Below are positions 4,739 to 63,768 of a stretch of DNA of 64,000 nucleotides, in pieces (the stretch's first letter is position 1; every line of letters begins with the position of its first letter). The stretch comes from an uncultured Pelagibacteraceae bacterium (GTDB lineage Bacteria; Pseudomonadota; Alphaproteobacteria; Pelagibacterales; Pelagibacteraceae): NCBI GenBank assembly GCA_902524545.1, contig CABZDW010000001.1, positions 62,001 to 126,000 of the forward strand, in the 5' to 3' direction. The notes under the pieces are model-generated. The model saw nothing but the letters and a program-made list of their open reading frames with translations, made no database searches and was not told the DNA's origin. Made by a program: the position numbers and the translations under genes.

Positions 4739-5667
4739 AAAAATTATTATTAATTCTAATATTTTTAACAGCATCAAATACAGTCTACGCAAATGGAAAA
4801 ATTTTAAAAAGTGGTTTTTTCACTAAAACAGCCTCGGTAAAAGAAGGTATGAGCATTGATGATCCTAAAAATAAAATTATAATTATTTACAATCATGGTC
4901 AAAATTCAAATGATAAAGCACACAAGAGTGAATGTATTTGGGTGAATCAAATAAGAAATCAAGCCTCATTAGTTGATAAGGAAATTAATGGTAAAAAAAT
5001 TATGGTTTATAATTTCTGTTCAAATGAATTTGCGGGTGATATGTCATTAAAAAAACACTGGTGGAATTCTAAAACTCTTTATGTAGGTAAGCACAAATTA
5101 GATAAAAGAGTTGAAAAAAATTTGGAATTAGTTGAAAAATTTATAAGTATAGGGGTTCCAAGAAAACAAATTATTATATCAGGTCATTCATGTGGGGGTC
5201 TATTAACTTTAATGTTGTTATCAGCTCACCCCGATAAAGTAGGTGGGGGCATATCATATATGCAAGCTTGTTTTGGTAAGCTTTCTAAAACTTATAAAGT
5301 AAAAAAAGTAGGCCCTGAAAAGGCATTAGAAAAATTTGCTAAAAAATACCCAGGCCCTGCTCAATTACGATCAAGACAAATTAATAATATTAAAGAATCT
5401 GATAATGTTCCTGTTTTAGCTTTCACTCACCCCAAGGATAAATGGGAGGGACTGACATCTGATTGGTTAGAAGAAGTACCAGGAGTTAAAAGAATTGTTA
5501 TTTCTGAAGACTATAAAATTAAAGGAAAATCTTGTGTTGTAAAAGGAGTTGATTGGCAAAAAAATGTTTCAGCTCGGAAAAATCCGGGTCATGAGATGAA
5601 CCAAGGGTTATGTTTTCAATACTATAATCCAGAAATTCTTAATTTTATTGCTTCAAGATTAAAATGA
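4735..5667 (+). CDS. Secreted alpha/beta-hydrolase-like protein of unknown substrate
   Basis: A 310-residue protein with a clear signal peptide (MKK, hydrophobic core, cleavage probably after A19 in 'TVYA'). The nucleophile elbow is G-H-S-C-G-G with Ser152; Asp235 ('HPKDKW') and His286 ('NPGHEM') are good candidates for the rest of a serine-hydrolase triad. An early 'YNHGQNSN' looks like an oxyanion-hole 'HG' strand. Four or more cysteines could form disulfides in the periplasm. I chose the ATG at 4735, which gives an ATGA overlap with mtnP and starts exactly at the signal peptide; an upstream GTG/TTG-type start would add residues with no signal character. It sits inside the MTA salvage operon, but a periplasmic esterase/peptidase has no known role there. 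Confidence 0.75.
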   Translation: MKKLLLILIFLTASNTVYANGKILKSGFFTKTASVKEGMSIDDPKNKIIIIYNHGQNSNDKAHKSECIWVNQIRNQASLVDKEINGKKIMVYNFCSNEFAGDMSLKKHWWNSKTLYVGKHKLDKRVEKNLELVEKFISIGVPRKQIIISGHSCGGLLTLMLLSAHPDKVGGGISYMQACFGKLSKTYKVKKVGPEKALEKFAKKYPGPAQLRSRQINNIKESDNVPVLAFTHPKDKWEGLTSDWLEEVPGVKRIVISEDYKIKGKSCVVKGVDWQKNVSARKNPGHEMNQGLCFQYYNPEILNFIASRLK

Positions 5668-57570: not shown

Positions 57571-58380
57571 TTAGACATTATAATTTATTTTAGCTAGAGC
57601 TTTTTTAACCACATCAGCCCAGCCTTCAGGTGATGGCATATTAGAAAATATCAAATTATCTATGTTTATTTGATCTAACTTAAATTTATCATTAAATACT
57701 AAACAGGGGACATCACAGCTTTTCAACATATCTAAGTCATTATAATTATCACCAACTGCAATTGACTTAATTTTATATTCTGTTTTCTTTAAAATTTTTA
57801 TTACTTTATTCATTGATTTTACTTTATTAATATTATCACAGAGATTTATAACACGCCCCCCTTCTTGAAGGGTTAATGAATTAGAATTTAAAATTTTTGA
57901 TAATTTATTTTGTTCATTTTTATCACCCTTAAACAAAAAAGGTGAAGTATATTTTCTATTCAAAGCATTTTTAAGTTTATCATCTTTTTGGCCAAATATT
58001 ATTTCTTGTTCTTTTTTGCTAATTTTAGAAATTTGAATACATTTATTTTTTAATTGTTCAGGTACTTTATCATTAAAAATTTTAATCAATTCTTCTTTCT
58101 CTCTGCTCAGAACAATCTTATCAGGAAAATTAGTATTAATTAGATTTAACCCTTGTATTAAAGATCCATTTTCAGAAATATATGGAAGCTTAACACCAAG
58201 TTCTTCATTAAATTTTTCAATTTCTTTTTCGGTTTTACTTGAATTTGGAATTATAATTATTCCATGATCTACAAGGCTTACAATATAATCTTTTATTGTG
58301 TCAAATTTAAAAGTATCTCTATGTAAAAGCGAACCATCTAAGTCTGTAAAGATTGCCACTTTTAAATTTTTTTTCATCAT
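57571..58380 (-). CDS. Glucosyl/mannosyl-3-phosphoglycerate phosphatase (HAD family)
   Basis: 269 residues of the HAD-IIB type. Motif I is Asp13-Leu-Asp15 ('FTDLDGSLL'), motif II 'IPNSSKTEKEI', motif IV 'AVGDNYNDLDML', as in MpgP. Removes phosphate from glucosyl-3-phosphoglycerate to give glucosylglycerate. First gene of the reverse operon; its promoter lies in the 191-base gap shared with the divergent sugar-phosphate cyclase. Confidence 0.87.
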   Translation of the reverse strand: MMKKNLKVAIFTDLDGSLLHRDTFKFDTIKDYIVSLVDHGIIIIPNSSKTEKEIEKFNEELGVKLPYISENGSLIQGLNLINTNFPDKIVLSREKEELIKIFNDKVPEQLKNKCIQISKISKKEQEIIFGQKDDKLKNALNRKYTSPFLFKGDKNEQNKLSKILNSNSLTLQEGGRVINLCDNINKVKSMNKVIKILKKTEYKIKSIAVGDNYNDLDMLKSCDVPCLVFNDKFKLDQINIDNLIFSNMPSPEGWADVVKKALAKINYNV

Positions 58381-61670: not shown

Positions 61671-61774
61671 TATGTATAATGATAATTATTAAAGATATTT
61701 ATTCACTATTAATTTTGTCCTACCTGGACATTATAATTGTCCATCAATGTTTATAAAATATTTAAATAAATAAC

Positions 61775-61878
61775 AATTTTACTTATTAACCTTGTTCAAT
61801 TATAAATATTAGCATAAATACTCATGAAAATAACTCATGCCCTCGTGGTGAAATTGGTAGACACAAAGGACTTAAAAT
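61775..61878 (+). repeat. Left copy of tRNA-Leu promoter plus 5' half (attachment-site-like)
   Basis: 104 bases that recur at 63619-63722 with a constant offset of 1,844 and no gap. The upstream ~64 bases (probable tRNA promoter) have seven differences; the last 40 bases (61839-61878) are identical to positions 1-40 of tRNA-Leu(UAA), through the anticodon loop. After 61878 the sequence leaves the tRNA. This is what is left of a tRNA gene split by an insertion, or an att site. Confidence 0.9.
61839..61878 (+). pseudogene. tRNA-Leu(UAA) 5'-half fragment
   Basis: Exact match to the acceptor 5' strand, D-arm, anticodon 5' strand and loop of the intact gene at 63683. It lacks the variable arm, T-arm and 3' acceptor strand, so it cannot fold to a tRNA. 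Its promoter region is kept, so a half-tRNA or a transcript into the island may still be made. Confidence 0.9.
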
Positions 61879-61900
61879 AGTTTCAGTTGAGGAATTTCAG

Positions 61901-61920
61901 AGTCTCTAATAGTCTCTAAT
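61901..61920 (+). repeat. 10-base tandem repeat near left end of the element
   Basis: Two exact copies of AGTCTCTAAT with a partial third following (GGTCTTAAT). About 22 bases inside the left tRNA fragment. Could be a recombinase arm site or simple slippage. Confidence 0.6.
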
Positions 61921-62001
61921 GGTCTTAATCCCTTATAATCCTATAACTTTTTAAATCGTTGGATTATTTTTATTGGAAAATATGAATAATAAATTCTGTT
62001 A

Positions 62002-62036
62002 AACTAGTAGCAAACTAGTAGCCAGAGAGATAAAAT
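62002..62036 (+). repeat. 35-base direct repeat, copy 1 (arm-site-like)
   Basis: Contains ACTAGTAG twice (62003 and 62014, 11 bases apart), then CCAGAGAGATAAAAT. It ends five bases before the ATG of the cargo gene, so its 3' part (AGAGAGAT) could also serve as ribosome site. Copy 2 at 63579-63613 has the same order with four or so changes. Confidence 0.8.
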
Positions 62037-62041
62037 TTTAT

Positions 62042-63565
62042 ATGTTTGATTTTCTTAAAAACAATAAGTGGATTAAATATTATGATGAAATTAAATCATA
62101 TTTTAACCCAAGATTTTTAATTGATGCAATCATTCCTACAGATATTATTGATACAGCAAAAACAGTAGCAAGTAACAAATCAGAAGACCAAATATTTAGA
62201 TTTATAATAGGGTGTGCAATAGTTAGAGGAATACTTATTGCAATTCCTGGAGATGTAGCTGTTGGGTTATATATTGCTCAAGCTATTGATTTTGCAATGG
62301 CAGCCAATATAGCAAGACTAGTTGGTTTAGATTTTAAAAAAGAAAATATTTTTAAGTTGTTAGGAGCTGCAAGTCTTTCTGCAGTTGCTGTGCTTTATGC
62401 ATTTGAAAAAGTTTTAAATATTATATTTAAATTCGTAGCGAATTTACCAATTGCGGCACCAGCTTCATTTGTTTCTACTACAATAACTTCATTATTTTTG
62501 GGTTTTTTTTGTTACCTTGCTTTTACTGAAATTAAAAATAGTGGTAACAAAAAACTTAAAATATTATCTATTGGAAAAATAGCAAAAAACGCATCTACCT
62601 TTACTTATAAAATCGGTAAAAATCTAATGACTTTGTTATTTAAAGATATGCCAGGACTATTCAATCAAGTGAAAGAAAATGTAAAATCTTTTATGCAGCT
62701 AAACATTGACTATAAAAAAAAAATTAAGGGAGAATTTTTTTTTGCTGCAAGTATGGCTTATTTACTAGACGGAAAGACACAAAGTTTTGATGGTCCAATA
62801 AGTCAAATGTGGCTGGATGCTTGGAGAATGTCGTATACTAATAAATTAGGCCCTGATGCCTCGATTGAAGATATTAAAAATCTAGCACAACAGTATCAGC
62901 CTGAGCAAATGCCCGGCGTTGAGAATTTGGTACAATCAAAGTTTTATGAAATTTTGGAGGAAAACTATGAAAATATGGATGGAGATAATTGGTCAGCAAA
63001 ACTTTTTACTGATCCATCACATCCTGCTACAGATGTAAGGTTTTATAACTCTGAGACTAATCAAACTTATGAAGTAAACTACAAACTAACTGATGACACT
63101 GAATACATTGAGCATCATTTAGAAAAATATCCTGATACACCAGTTGTAACTTCACCTGAAACAGCCGAGAAAATGAATAATCCATTAGTTACTGGAGGGC
63201 AGTATGAAACTAAAGAAGTTATTAAATTATCAGATGATAATTTCATGAAATTATTAAATTCAAAACATACACTTTATTTGCAAGAGGGGGCTGCGGCAGC
63301 AGGTGTTATAGTGTTATCAATTCACTTATTTCCATTTTTTGTGCATTATTTCAAAGAAAATATTGATAGAGAACAATTTATGTTAGCTGTTAAGAAATTT
63401 GTACCAGATGTTACTACCAAAACTTTAAATAGAATAATAATGCTTACACTCATGGGACCTATTTTTGGATGGTTTTTATTAGCAAGATTTTTATTAAATA
63501 TATCAACTCACGAAAGTGATAATGTTAAAGATATAAAGCAATTATTTTATAAACCACTTGTATAG
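62042..63565 (+). CDS. Element-borne membrane protein with DUF697-like N-terminal part, function unknown
   Basis: 507 residues. Residues ~50-165 are hydrophobic and Gly/Ala-rich and resemble the DUF697/YcjF membrane region ('PGDVAVGLYIAQAIDFAMAANIARLVGL'), but no GTPase P-loop precedes them. Residues ~225-390 are soluble, with 'DPSHPATDVRFYN' and a 'YIEHHLEKYPDTPVVTSPE' segment. Two more hydrophobic helices lie near 405-430 and 460-485. No recombinase R-H-R-Y motif or nuclease motif is seen. As sole cargo of an element at a tRNA gene, a role in phage exclusion, toxin action or element maintenance is plausible but unproven. Confidence 0.75.
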   Translation: MFDFLKNNKWIKYYDEIKSYFNPRFLIDAIIPTDIIDTAKTVASNKSEDQIFRFIIGCAIVRGILIAIPGDVAVGLYIAQAIDFAMAANIARLVGLDFKKENIFKLLGAASLSAVAVLYAFEKVLNIIFKFVANLPIAAPASFVSTTITSLFLGFFCYLAFTEIKNSGNKKLKILSIGKIAKNASTFTYKIGKNLMTLLFKDMPGLFNQVKENVKSFMQLNIDYKKKIKGEFFFAASMAYLLDGKTQSFDGPISQMWLDAWRMSYTNKLGPDASIEDIKNLAQQYQPEQMPGVENLVQSKFYEILEENYENMDGDNWSAKLFTDPSHPATDVRFYNSETNQTYEVNYKLTDDTEYIEHHLEKYPDTPVVTSPETAEKMNNPLVTGGQYETKEVIKLSDDNFMKLLNSKHTLYLQEGAAAAGVIVLSIHLFPFFVHYFKENIDREQFMLAVKKFVPDVTTKTLNRIIMLTLMGPIFGWFLLARFLLNISTHESDNVKDIKQLFYKPLV

Positions 63566-63578
63566 GACTTTATAGGAT

Positions 63579-63613
63579 AACTAGTAGGAGACTAGTAGCC
63601 AGGGAGATAAAAT
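63579..63613 (+). repeat. 35-base direct repeat, copy 2 (arm-site-like)
   Basis: ACTAGTAG at 63580 and 63591 (11 bases apart), then CCAGGGAGATAAAAT. It begins 13 bases after the cargo gene stop. Before it are two TATAGGA copies 10 bases apart (63561, 63571); the left end has the reverse complement TCCTATA at 61939. Paired, phased short repeats near both ends recall tyrosine-recombinase arm sites. Confidence 0.8.
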
Positions 63614-63618
63614 AAAAA

Positions 63619-63722
63619 AATTTTACTTATTAGACTTGTTCAATTATAAATATTAGCATAAACACTCATGAAATTCATTAATGCCCTCGTGGTGAAATTG
63701 GTAGACACAAAGGACTTAAAAT
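63619..63722 (+). repeat. Right copy of tRNA-Leu promoter plus 5' half
   Basis: Same 104 bases as 61775-61878 with about seven differences, all upstream of the tRNA. It supplies promoter and 5' half to the intact tRNA-Leu. Differences only outside the tRNA suggest that the two copies diverged before or since insertion, with the tRNA part under selection or forming the crossover. Confidence 0.9.
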
Positions 63723-63768
63723 CCTTGCCGCTTGCGGAGTGCCAGTTCGAGTCTGGCCGAGGGCACCA
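63683..63768 (+). tRNA. tRNA-Leu (anticodon UAA), CCA encoded
   Basis: 7-bp acceptor stem GCCCTCG/CGAGGGC, D-arm with 'TTGGTAG', 5-bp anticodon stem AAGGA/TCCTT around loop CTTAAAA (anticodon TAA), a long variable arm (class II tRNA) and T-loop 'GTTCGAGT', discriminator A at 63765 and CCA at 63766-63768. Reads UUA, the dominant leucine codon in this AT-rich genome, so disruption would be lethal or costly. nadK starts four bases after the CCA. Confidence 0.97.

Follow-up and report, generated by a model that had tools for sequence, protein, structure and literature searches.

A 1,844-bp integrase-less insert in tRNA-Leu(UAA) of a Pelagibacteraceae bacterium and its relation to cassettes with matched, variable end words

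Integration of mobile DNA at the 5' half of tRNA-Leu has precedents. In the accessible parts of the papers cited here and below, the first tRNA-Leu half is matched by the attP sites of T7-like cyanophages (PMC8776855), and the SAR11-relative phages uv-Fonsiphage-EPL, HTVC011P and HTVC025P integrate at tRNA-Leu(TAG) and supply their own tRNA-Leu (PMC6811365). Integrase-less elements flanked by att sites, units moved in trans and paired arm sites are also on record. The subject of this work is a 1,844-bp insert that splits the tRNA-Leu(UAA) gene of an uncultured Pelagibacteraceae bacterium (GenBank assembly GCA_902524545.1, contig CABZDW010000001.1, positions 62,001 to 126,000 of the forward strand; these 64,000 nucleotides are the window). 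It is probably a non-autonomous integrative cassette moved in trans by satellite tyrosine integrases that read a short word present at both of its ends. An earlier note on this DNA, made from its letters alone, had described a satellite-like element mobilised in trans. That description is still the one that fits best; trans movement, binding of the word and transfer between cells are what we infer.

The insert is delimited by a 114-nt direct repeat (61765-61878 and 63609-63722, 103/114 identical) whose copies are 1,844 nt apart, the spacing given in the earlier note, which had put the repeat at 104 bases. ARAGORN identifies a single intact tRNA-Leu(TAA), with the anticodon at tRNA positions 35-37. 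The tRNA identity of the left repeat copy ends after position 40 while the right copy continues into the 3' half, and the left half joined to the resident 3' half (Table 1) is an intact tRNA-Leu, letter for letter. The breakpoint is in the anticodon loop, and the insert supplies a new promoter region and 5' half. The dead left half and the completed right copy recognised in the note are confirmed by ARAGORN and by the exact joining of the flanks; its finding that the insert brings promoter and 5' half also stands, without the implied lack of precedent, given the cyanophage attP sites mentioned above. A group I intron, considered from general knowledge and with no RNA-family search, was set aside because the joined flanks alone yield the tRNA and the insert holds a second promoter region and 5' half. 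As the note had stated, the insert has one gene, a long open reading frame (ORF) that encodes 507 aa, and Pfam, PHROGs and recombinase searches matched no recombinase in it. No further copy of the element was found elsewhere in the source genome. The ORF 3' of the tRNA is presumably nadK, a label that comes only from the earlier note. Tandem positioning of tRNA-derived core repeats around the insert and the rebuilt tRNA are those of an integrative element; lacking an integrase of its own, the insert is classed only as a non-autonomous relative of Lambda/P4-type integrative elements. The key feature, absent from the note, is another direct repeat, placed immediately within the two insert ends (62002-62036 and 63579-63613, 35 nt, 91%).

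The site is occupied in a similar manner across the genus. In a first sample of genomes, the tRNA with the start of the next gene was matched in 51 of 61 at E <= 0.001 (42 below 1e-12). The promoter with the 5' half has a match at E <= 1e-12 in 281/399 genomes of the genus, many of which carry extra half copies upstream of the same tRNA, so the repeat is more than chance. A survey of 100 loci (L numbers denote individual stretches or contigs, G numbers genomes) yielded 92 intact tRNAs and 88 5' halves left stranded; between successive cores there are 80 inserts. The selection was partly for multiple copies and is not unbiased: 60 loci came from the top of the promoter-plus-5'-half match list, partly for having two listed copies, which biases the occupied share upwards; L003, L070 and L071 of the first 40 stretches were left out (no tRNA match), and of another 10 only L138-L140 were included. 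Within the stretch fetched, 43 of the 92 intact-tRNA loci have one upstream half copy, 14 have two, 3 have three and 32 have none. Half of the latter (16/32) also fail the looser word-pair filter described below, and a few keep a single degraded word. Unoccupied tRNA-Leu(UAA) sites thus exist in the genus; the earlier note, which had proposed to look for them, would have counted their lack in close genomes against its reading. Its view that the insert is unusually small is not sustained, since 1.84 kb is unexceptional among the 80 inserts, whose median length is 2.6 kb; one, of 267 bp, is gene-free, and the rest span 975 bp to 11.4 kb. The satellite integrase dealt with below is missing from 77 of the 80, the search in L148-L207 having covered that integrase profile only, in ORFs of at least 120 aa.

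Two types of insert in this survey depart from the common layout. The 267-bp insert (L168:11246-11513, tRNA on +) consists of left and right ends only, with one shared word pair, such as would remain after a deletion between matched pairs. A two-gene insert (406 and 279 aa) lies between cores without word pairs at L037:4572-6749, L048:551-2728 and L201:8479-10656 (tRNA on + in each). One of its genes has a relative in the ORF at window 57571-58380; cores therefore also enclose genes of the neighbouring region.

Just inside both cassette ends there is a tandem pair of 8-nt words, with a period of 11 bp, followed by a GAGATAA-like sequence. A strict filter for such pairs is passed by 58/88 left ends and 78/178 right-end positions (the latter include resident promoters with no element), and by 63 of 20,000 random positions. 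The distance from the core is nearly constant, the pair starting at +127 to +129 in 56 of 58 left ends and at -141 in 70 of 78 right ends by the script's count; in the window the right pair begins 141 bases ahead of 63722, where the shared stretch ends. There are 30 distinct words, some one letter apart, in a list that includes two satellite ends (L138, L139). The window has CTAGTAGC at both ends. The same word is found at both ends of 42/46 cassettes passing the strict filter, a match being defined as at least one left copy equal to one right copy, and of 36/39 when a single cassette is kept per cargo cluster. Different cassettes match in 5.5% of comparisons, and none of 20,000 permutations reaches the observed sum; the permutation ignores relatedness, for which the cargo-cluster and neighbour controls account in part. 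In the neighbour control, facing ends of adjacent inserts, about 270 bp apart across one core, share the word in 1 of 17 cases. With a looser filter the ends match exactly in 55/62 and within one letter in 57/62. The outliers are 2, 2, 3, 6 and 7 letters apart: the last belongs to the integrase-bearing L140 insert, in which the script misread the GTTCCACA-type word, and the 6-letter case (L038) adjoins a degraded core. L168 was dropped from these counts (63 to 62, 47 to 46), as its single pair serves both ends and matches trivially. A scorable pair is missing at one or both ends of 17/80 inserts. With their fixed spacing to either side of the core, the matched pairs have the layout of putative arm-type sites.

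The word can change while the cargo is retained. A 2,654-bp cassette has CTAGAAAC at both ends in L049, CTAGTAGC at both ends in L148, and mixed ends in L163 and L175. L049 and L148 differ at 5 positions of the middle 2,254 bp (99.8% identity), 29 of the first 200 bp and 14 of the last 200 bp. This concentration of differences at the ends indicates that both were exchanged and the cargo kept. Related cargoes are also found between different matched words in L046 and L047, and in L149 and L176. In other families the word is constant, CCAGTACC in the caspase group (L152, L156, L184) and CCAGCACA in L154 and L162, which plain descent explains equally well. These data bear on the best surviving alternative, namely that the cassettes are immobile decay remnants of old satellites or prophages that lost the integrase, as in cis-mobilisable elements (CIMEs), with the matching words left over from the parents. 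The rarity of the integrase (absent from 77/80), the 17 inserts with no scorable pair and the divergence of half copies further up the arrays (85% in L038, 88% in L041) favour decay; the clean pairs that are still matched in 42/46, the same cargo bounded by different matched words and the replacement of both ends around a nearly unchanged middle count against it, and we regard decay as improbable, if the most credible of the rivals.

Candidate enzymes for movement in trans are encoded by elements at the same site. Scanning IMG/VR for the exact tRNA 5' half as a pattern gave 23 contigs, of which L076, L097 and L084 had their ORFs listed and the others were searched for integrases only. L076, L091, L095 and L097 code for a tyrosine integrase of about 545 aa and have a cassette-like end layout. 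In L076 (7,799 bp) the integrase is followed by a primase-helicase (AEP-TOTE, DUF5906), a close relative of which is present in L097, and the contig has a 99-nt terminal repeat that runs across the core and on into its own left end, as would be expected of a circle or a tandem copy. The integrase is found in 6/300 genomes of the genus (in pieces in G159, weak in G253) and in 10/397 of the family (three below 1e-90), few compared to the many cassettes. Ten satellites have both arms readable (L076, L091, L095, L097, L208, L209, L222, L223, L225, L226), and in nine the right word is repeated exactly in the left arm. The left word falls within the integrase ORF, roughly as far from the core as in cassettes, and the other left copy is often degraded. 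In the closest satellite group, 4 of 6 distinct words are also cassette words (CTAGAAAC, CCAGCACA, CCAGTACC, CTAGGATC), for which shared descent could be another cause.

Other contigs and records with this tRNA sequence show different arrangements. L078 and L089 continue into the full tRNA 3' half. Six contigs (L077, L083, L086, L087, L090, L096) have a tyrosine recombinase of another type adjacent to the tRNA-Leu 5' half or not far from it; L086 and L077, which were scanned, are short, and Pfam detected no arm domain in them. The phage-like contig L084, with a gene that we take to be PhoH-like, has at 4953-5129 a cassette-type right end with the word CCTGTACA, a promoter, the tRNA half and then the apparent start of another gene; no left cassette end was seen in it, and it is a possible vehicle for cassettes. 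The tRNA region is matched by 216 phage records, none over more than 80% of its length; most of the 40 matches listed are ordinary tRNA-Leu, and five records of Pelagibacter phages are counted among the 216 outside that list. At the starts of contigs L210 and L224 there are integrases of the satellite family with tandem words near the left end, adjoining what we take to be tRNA-Cys-like sequence, in which ARAGORN found no whole tRNA. The word code may reach beyond tRNA-Leu.

The satellite integrase has the predicted build of an enzyme that could read arm-type sites. The AlphaFold2 model of the L076 protein (pLDDT 79, pTM 0.44) resembles lambda and Tn1549 integrases. Its modelled residues 29-124 superpose on the arm-type domain of the HPI integrase (77/77 residues, Z 9.6, root-mean-square deviation 2.0), and the arm region gave Z 9.4 with HAI7 and 9.0 with a P4-like integrase. 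The likeness is by fold only, the integrase profile having no match at E 0.01 among sequences of solved structures (PDB). Residues R373, K400, R485, H508 and Y518, invariant in 13 integrase sequences, are presumably the catalytic R, K, R, H, Y motif. An arm-type domain, by predicted fold, is thus combined with a catalytic domain. Pfam Phage_integrase is matched above cut-off by L095 and L210, below it by L076, and not by L092 and L140. Divergence of the arm region, fixed as residues 28-122 before the fold match was known, accompanies divergence of the word in three near-identical pairs. Integrases L076 and L097, with the same word, are 97% identical in the arm region and 94% in the rest; for pairs with different words the respective values are 78 and 94% (L076/L091), 51 and 96% (L092/L094), and 58 and 93% (L222/L225). 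The excess of arm-region changes is significant by Fisher test (p 1e-6 for L097/L091, 5e-23 for L094/L092). We infer that the N-terminal arm domain of the satellite tyrosine integrases reads the word pairs as arm-type sites.

Two other explanations were considered. The words could be operators or replication iterons serving the cargo or the tRNA promoter, with the matching ends resulting from duplication of one unit, for instance as a target-site duplication. The 35-nt unit is indeed a direct repeat around the cargo, its left copy in the window is just upstream of the ORF, and the single unit with no cargo in L168 is as deletion between two units would leave it. Distances that are fixed relative to the core, a left unit that in satellites lies at about the same distance within the integrase frame, and arm domains that diverge along with the word in three near-identical integrase pairs make this very unlikely. 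Marginally less credible still is movement by the host chromosomal tyrosine recombinase (about 317 aa), for although a PF00589 enzyme, mostly of about 310-327 aa, is present in 29/39 genomes including the source, that of the source (317 aa) has SAM-like and catalytic domains with no arm-type domain detected by Pfam, offers no reader for 30 words and, being fixed, gives no reason for the words to vary.

Several observations weigh against mobilisation of the cassettes by satellite integrases. Movement was not observed. Unlike ends occur in 4/46 cassettes of the strict set (two by one letter, two by two) and 7/62 of the looser set, and the left arm of satellite L095 is unlike its right. No satellite with the exact window word CTAGTAGC was found, the nearest being CTAGTAAT in L095. 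The search of the source genome for tyrosine recombinases, advised in the earlier note, returned the host enzyme and not the satellite integrase (assembly 89% complete), so a helper would need to come from outside. The excised circles that the note had also proposed to look for were not met with, the junctions of the 23 IMG/VR contigs giving no clear free circle of an integrase-less cassette. Among integrases, L138/L139 have words 4 letters apart and no significant arm excess (p 0.07), L095/L139 have a conserved arm region (77%) with words two letters apart, L095/L223 are more alike in the arm (77%) than in the rest (59%), also with words two letters apart, and the word-arm correlation comes from seven related integrases (Spearman -0.50, exact Mantel 166/5,040).

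In the mechanism that we favour, mobilisation by satellites, an incoming satellite integrase would read the word and excise a cassette bearing the same word as a circle, which would be integrated in trans at tRNA-Leu(UAA). With the promoter and 5' half that it brings, each arrival would restore the tRNA and push older cassettes away from the tRNA 3' half, with the cargo, here a candidate defence gene, travelling inside. Divergence of the words along with the integrase arm domain suggests that several mobilisation channels share one target and stay separate. The stronger proposal, which we hold to be slightly better than an even bet, is an address code in which arm domain and 8-nt word diversify together, giving up to about 30 insulated channels at one tRNA that cassettes join through the word at both ends and switch by exchanging both ends.

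The 507-aa protein of the window matches the PADLOC family PDC-M72B (E 5e-11, residues 258-384), as do three scanned homologues. PDC-M72B is a candidate defence family and the gene a candidate defence gene. Hydrophobic stretches suggest a membrane protein. The family is patchy (5/201 genomes). PDC-M72B is the sole functional lead since Pfam (only a PilZ-like match below cut-off, E 0.039), PHROGs (best E 0.21), a single-sequence AlphaFold2 model (mean pLDDT 37, useless) and viral contigs (no relatives found) provided none. On contig L003 a 70% homologue of this protein (G158) is followed, at about 2723-2745, by a tandem pair (TGTTGTAC twice); no tRNA-Leu core was found on that contig, and the pair may mark an end in some other family of cassettes.

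The other inserts carry one to several genes each, mostly unrelated between inserts, as identified with Pfam and PADLOC. Type IIG enzymes are present in L153 (MmeI-like) and L174, an EcoRI-type methylase alongside a GmrSD/HNH protein in L040, and a methylase paired with a specificity protein, both type I-like, in L039. L041 has an Mrr-type nuclease. Caspase-domain proteins are found in L152, L156 and L184, trypsin-like proteins in L045 and L158, autotransporter proteins in L047 and L159, and, among others, a carbamoyltransferase in L038. Five of 20 cassette proteins scanned singly have a PADLOC match at 1e-5; defence genes are frequent among the cassettes, not universal.

Table 1. Features of the split tRNA-Leu(UAA) gene and its insert (window coordinates).
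Feature	Position	Strand	Basis or remark
Resident tRNA promoter region, stranded upstream of the dead half	61765..61838	+	Repeat and upstream sequences; without word pair, as a pre-insertion site should be
Dead 5' half of tRNA-Leu(UAA), positions 1-40; left crossover core	61839..61878	+	Repeat, flank joining
Inserted element, 1,844 bp	61879..63722	+	Boundary by convention at the shared-core end; crossover somewhere within the core
Three direct repeats AGTCTC / AGTCTC / GGTCTT, period ~10 bp, near left core	61901..61929	+	Possible accessory-protein sites, putative role
Left word pair CTAGTAGC-aaa-CTAGTAGC, +126 from 61878	62004..62022	+	Putative arm-type site
Sole cargo gene, 507 aa	62042..63565	+	PADLOC candidate defence PDC-M72B
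TATAGGACTTTATAGGATAAC motif beside right word pair	63561..63581	+	Inverted relative TAATCCTATAAC near left end
Right word pair CTAGTAGG-aga-CTAGTAGC, -141 from 63722	63581..63599	+	Putative arm-type site
Promoter region carried by the element for the rebuilt tRNA	63609..63682	+	Direct repeat; putative promoter role
tRNA-Leu 5' half carried by the element; right crossover core	63683..63722	+	ARAGORN, repeat, flank joining
Resident tRNA-Leu 3' half	63723..63768	+	ARAGORN, flank joining
Intact rebuilt tRNA-Leu(UAA)	63683..63768	+	ARAGORN

The bacteria of SAR11, to which the host very probably belongs, rank with the most abundant cells in the ocean and have very small genomes and poorly understood gene exchange. 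If the proposed address code is true, a streamlined ocean bacterium gains a library of one- to few-gene cassettes moved in trans, often with defence genes. A defined exchange site and a readable code, statistically tested, would link a class of helper enzyme to the cargo, which comprises candidate defence genes (restriction-modification and caspase-domain genes among them), surface proteins and metabolic genes. Trans-mobilisation becomes directly testable, and the natural pairs of arm domain and word lend themselves to study of how integrase arm specificity evolves.

Compared to known systems, the cassettes share integration at the tRNA-Leu 5' half with cyanophages P-SSP7 and S-TIP37, in which integration needs integrase and attP; those are phages with an integrase of their own, and the available text does not describe cassettes or matched word pairs (PMC8776855). 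Satellite integrases have a predicted arm fold in common with P4-like integrases (arm domains of HPI and HAI7; PDB 3jtz, 3ju0, 3rmp), and differ from them in being about 545 aa long and related by fold only. CIMEs resemble the cassettes in keeping att sites with no integrase and in tandem accretion at one site (PMC5704250), and the window insert likewise has att sites and no integrase; as a CIME it would have to derive from a parent by loss of integration and transfer genes. Many small cargo units with matched, varied arm words distinguish the cassettes from CIMEs as that source presents them, and suggest use in trans rather than decay. Integron cassettes in clusters of attC sites lacking integron-integrases (CALIN) and miniature inverted-repeat transposable elements are units with no recombinase moved in trans by the enzyme of a related element (PMC11389934); they have attC sites or transposon ends instead of attP-like arms and a tRNA target, and direct word repeats with a tRNA core argue against an integron cassette here, although no search for attC sites was made. 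Tycheposons and virion-encapsidated integrative mobile elements (VEIMEs) are comparable marine elements, the former bordered by tRNA and equipped with a tyrosine recombinase (PMC10872708, PMC11389934). By that description the window insert has the tRNA and the cargo of tycheposons and not the recombinase, whereas tycheposons are of 4-200 kb and a word code is not described for them in the part available (PMC10872708). Mycobacteriophage integrases are similar to those of the satellites, lambda-like with an arm domain and with putative arm-type site pairs flanking the attP core; these phages carry their own integrase and bring a tRNA 3' half or a whole tRNA, unlike the cassettes (PMC10865867). 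Literature searches, with most subscription papers outside their scope, found no published report of matched variable arm words. As far as these searches reach, two things are new: arrays of integrase-less cassettes that have matched, diversified arm words, and divergence of the integrase arm domain linked to the word.

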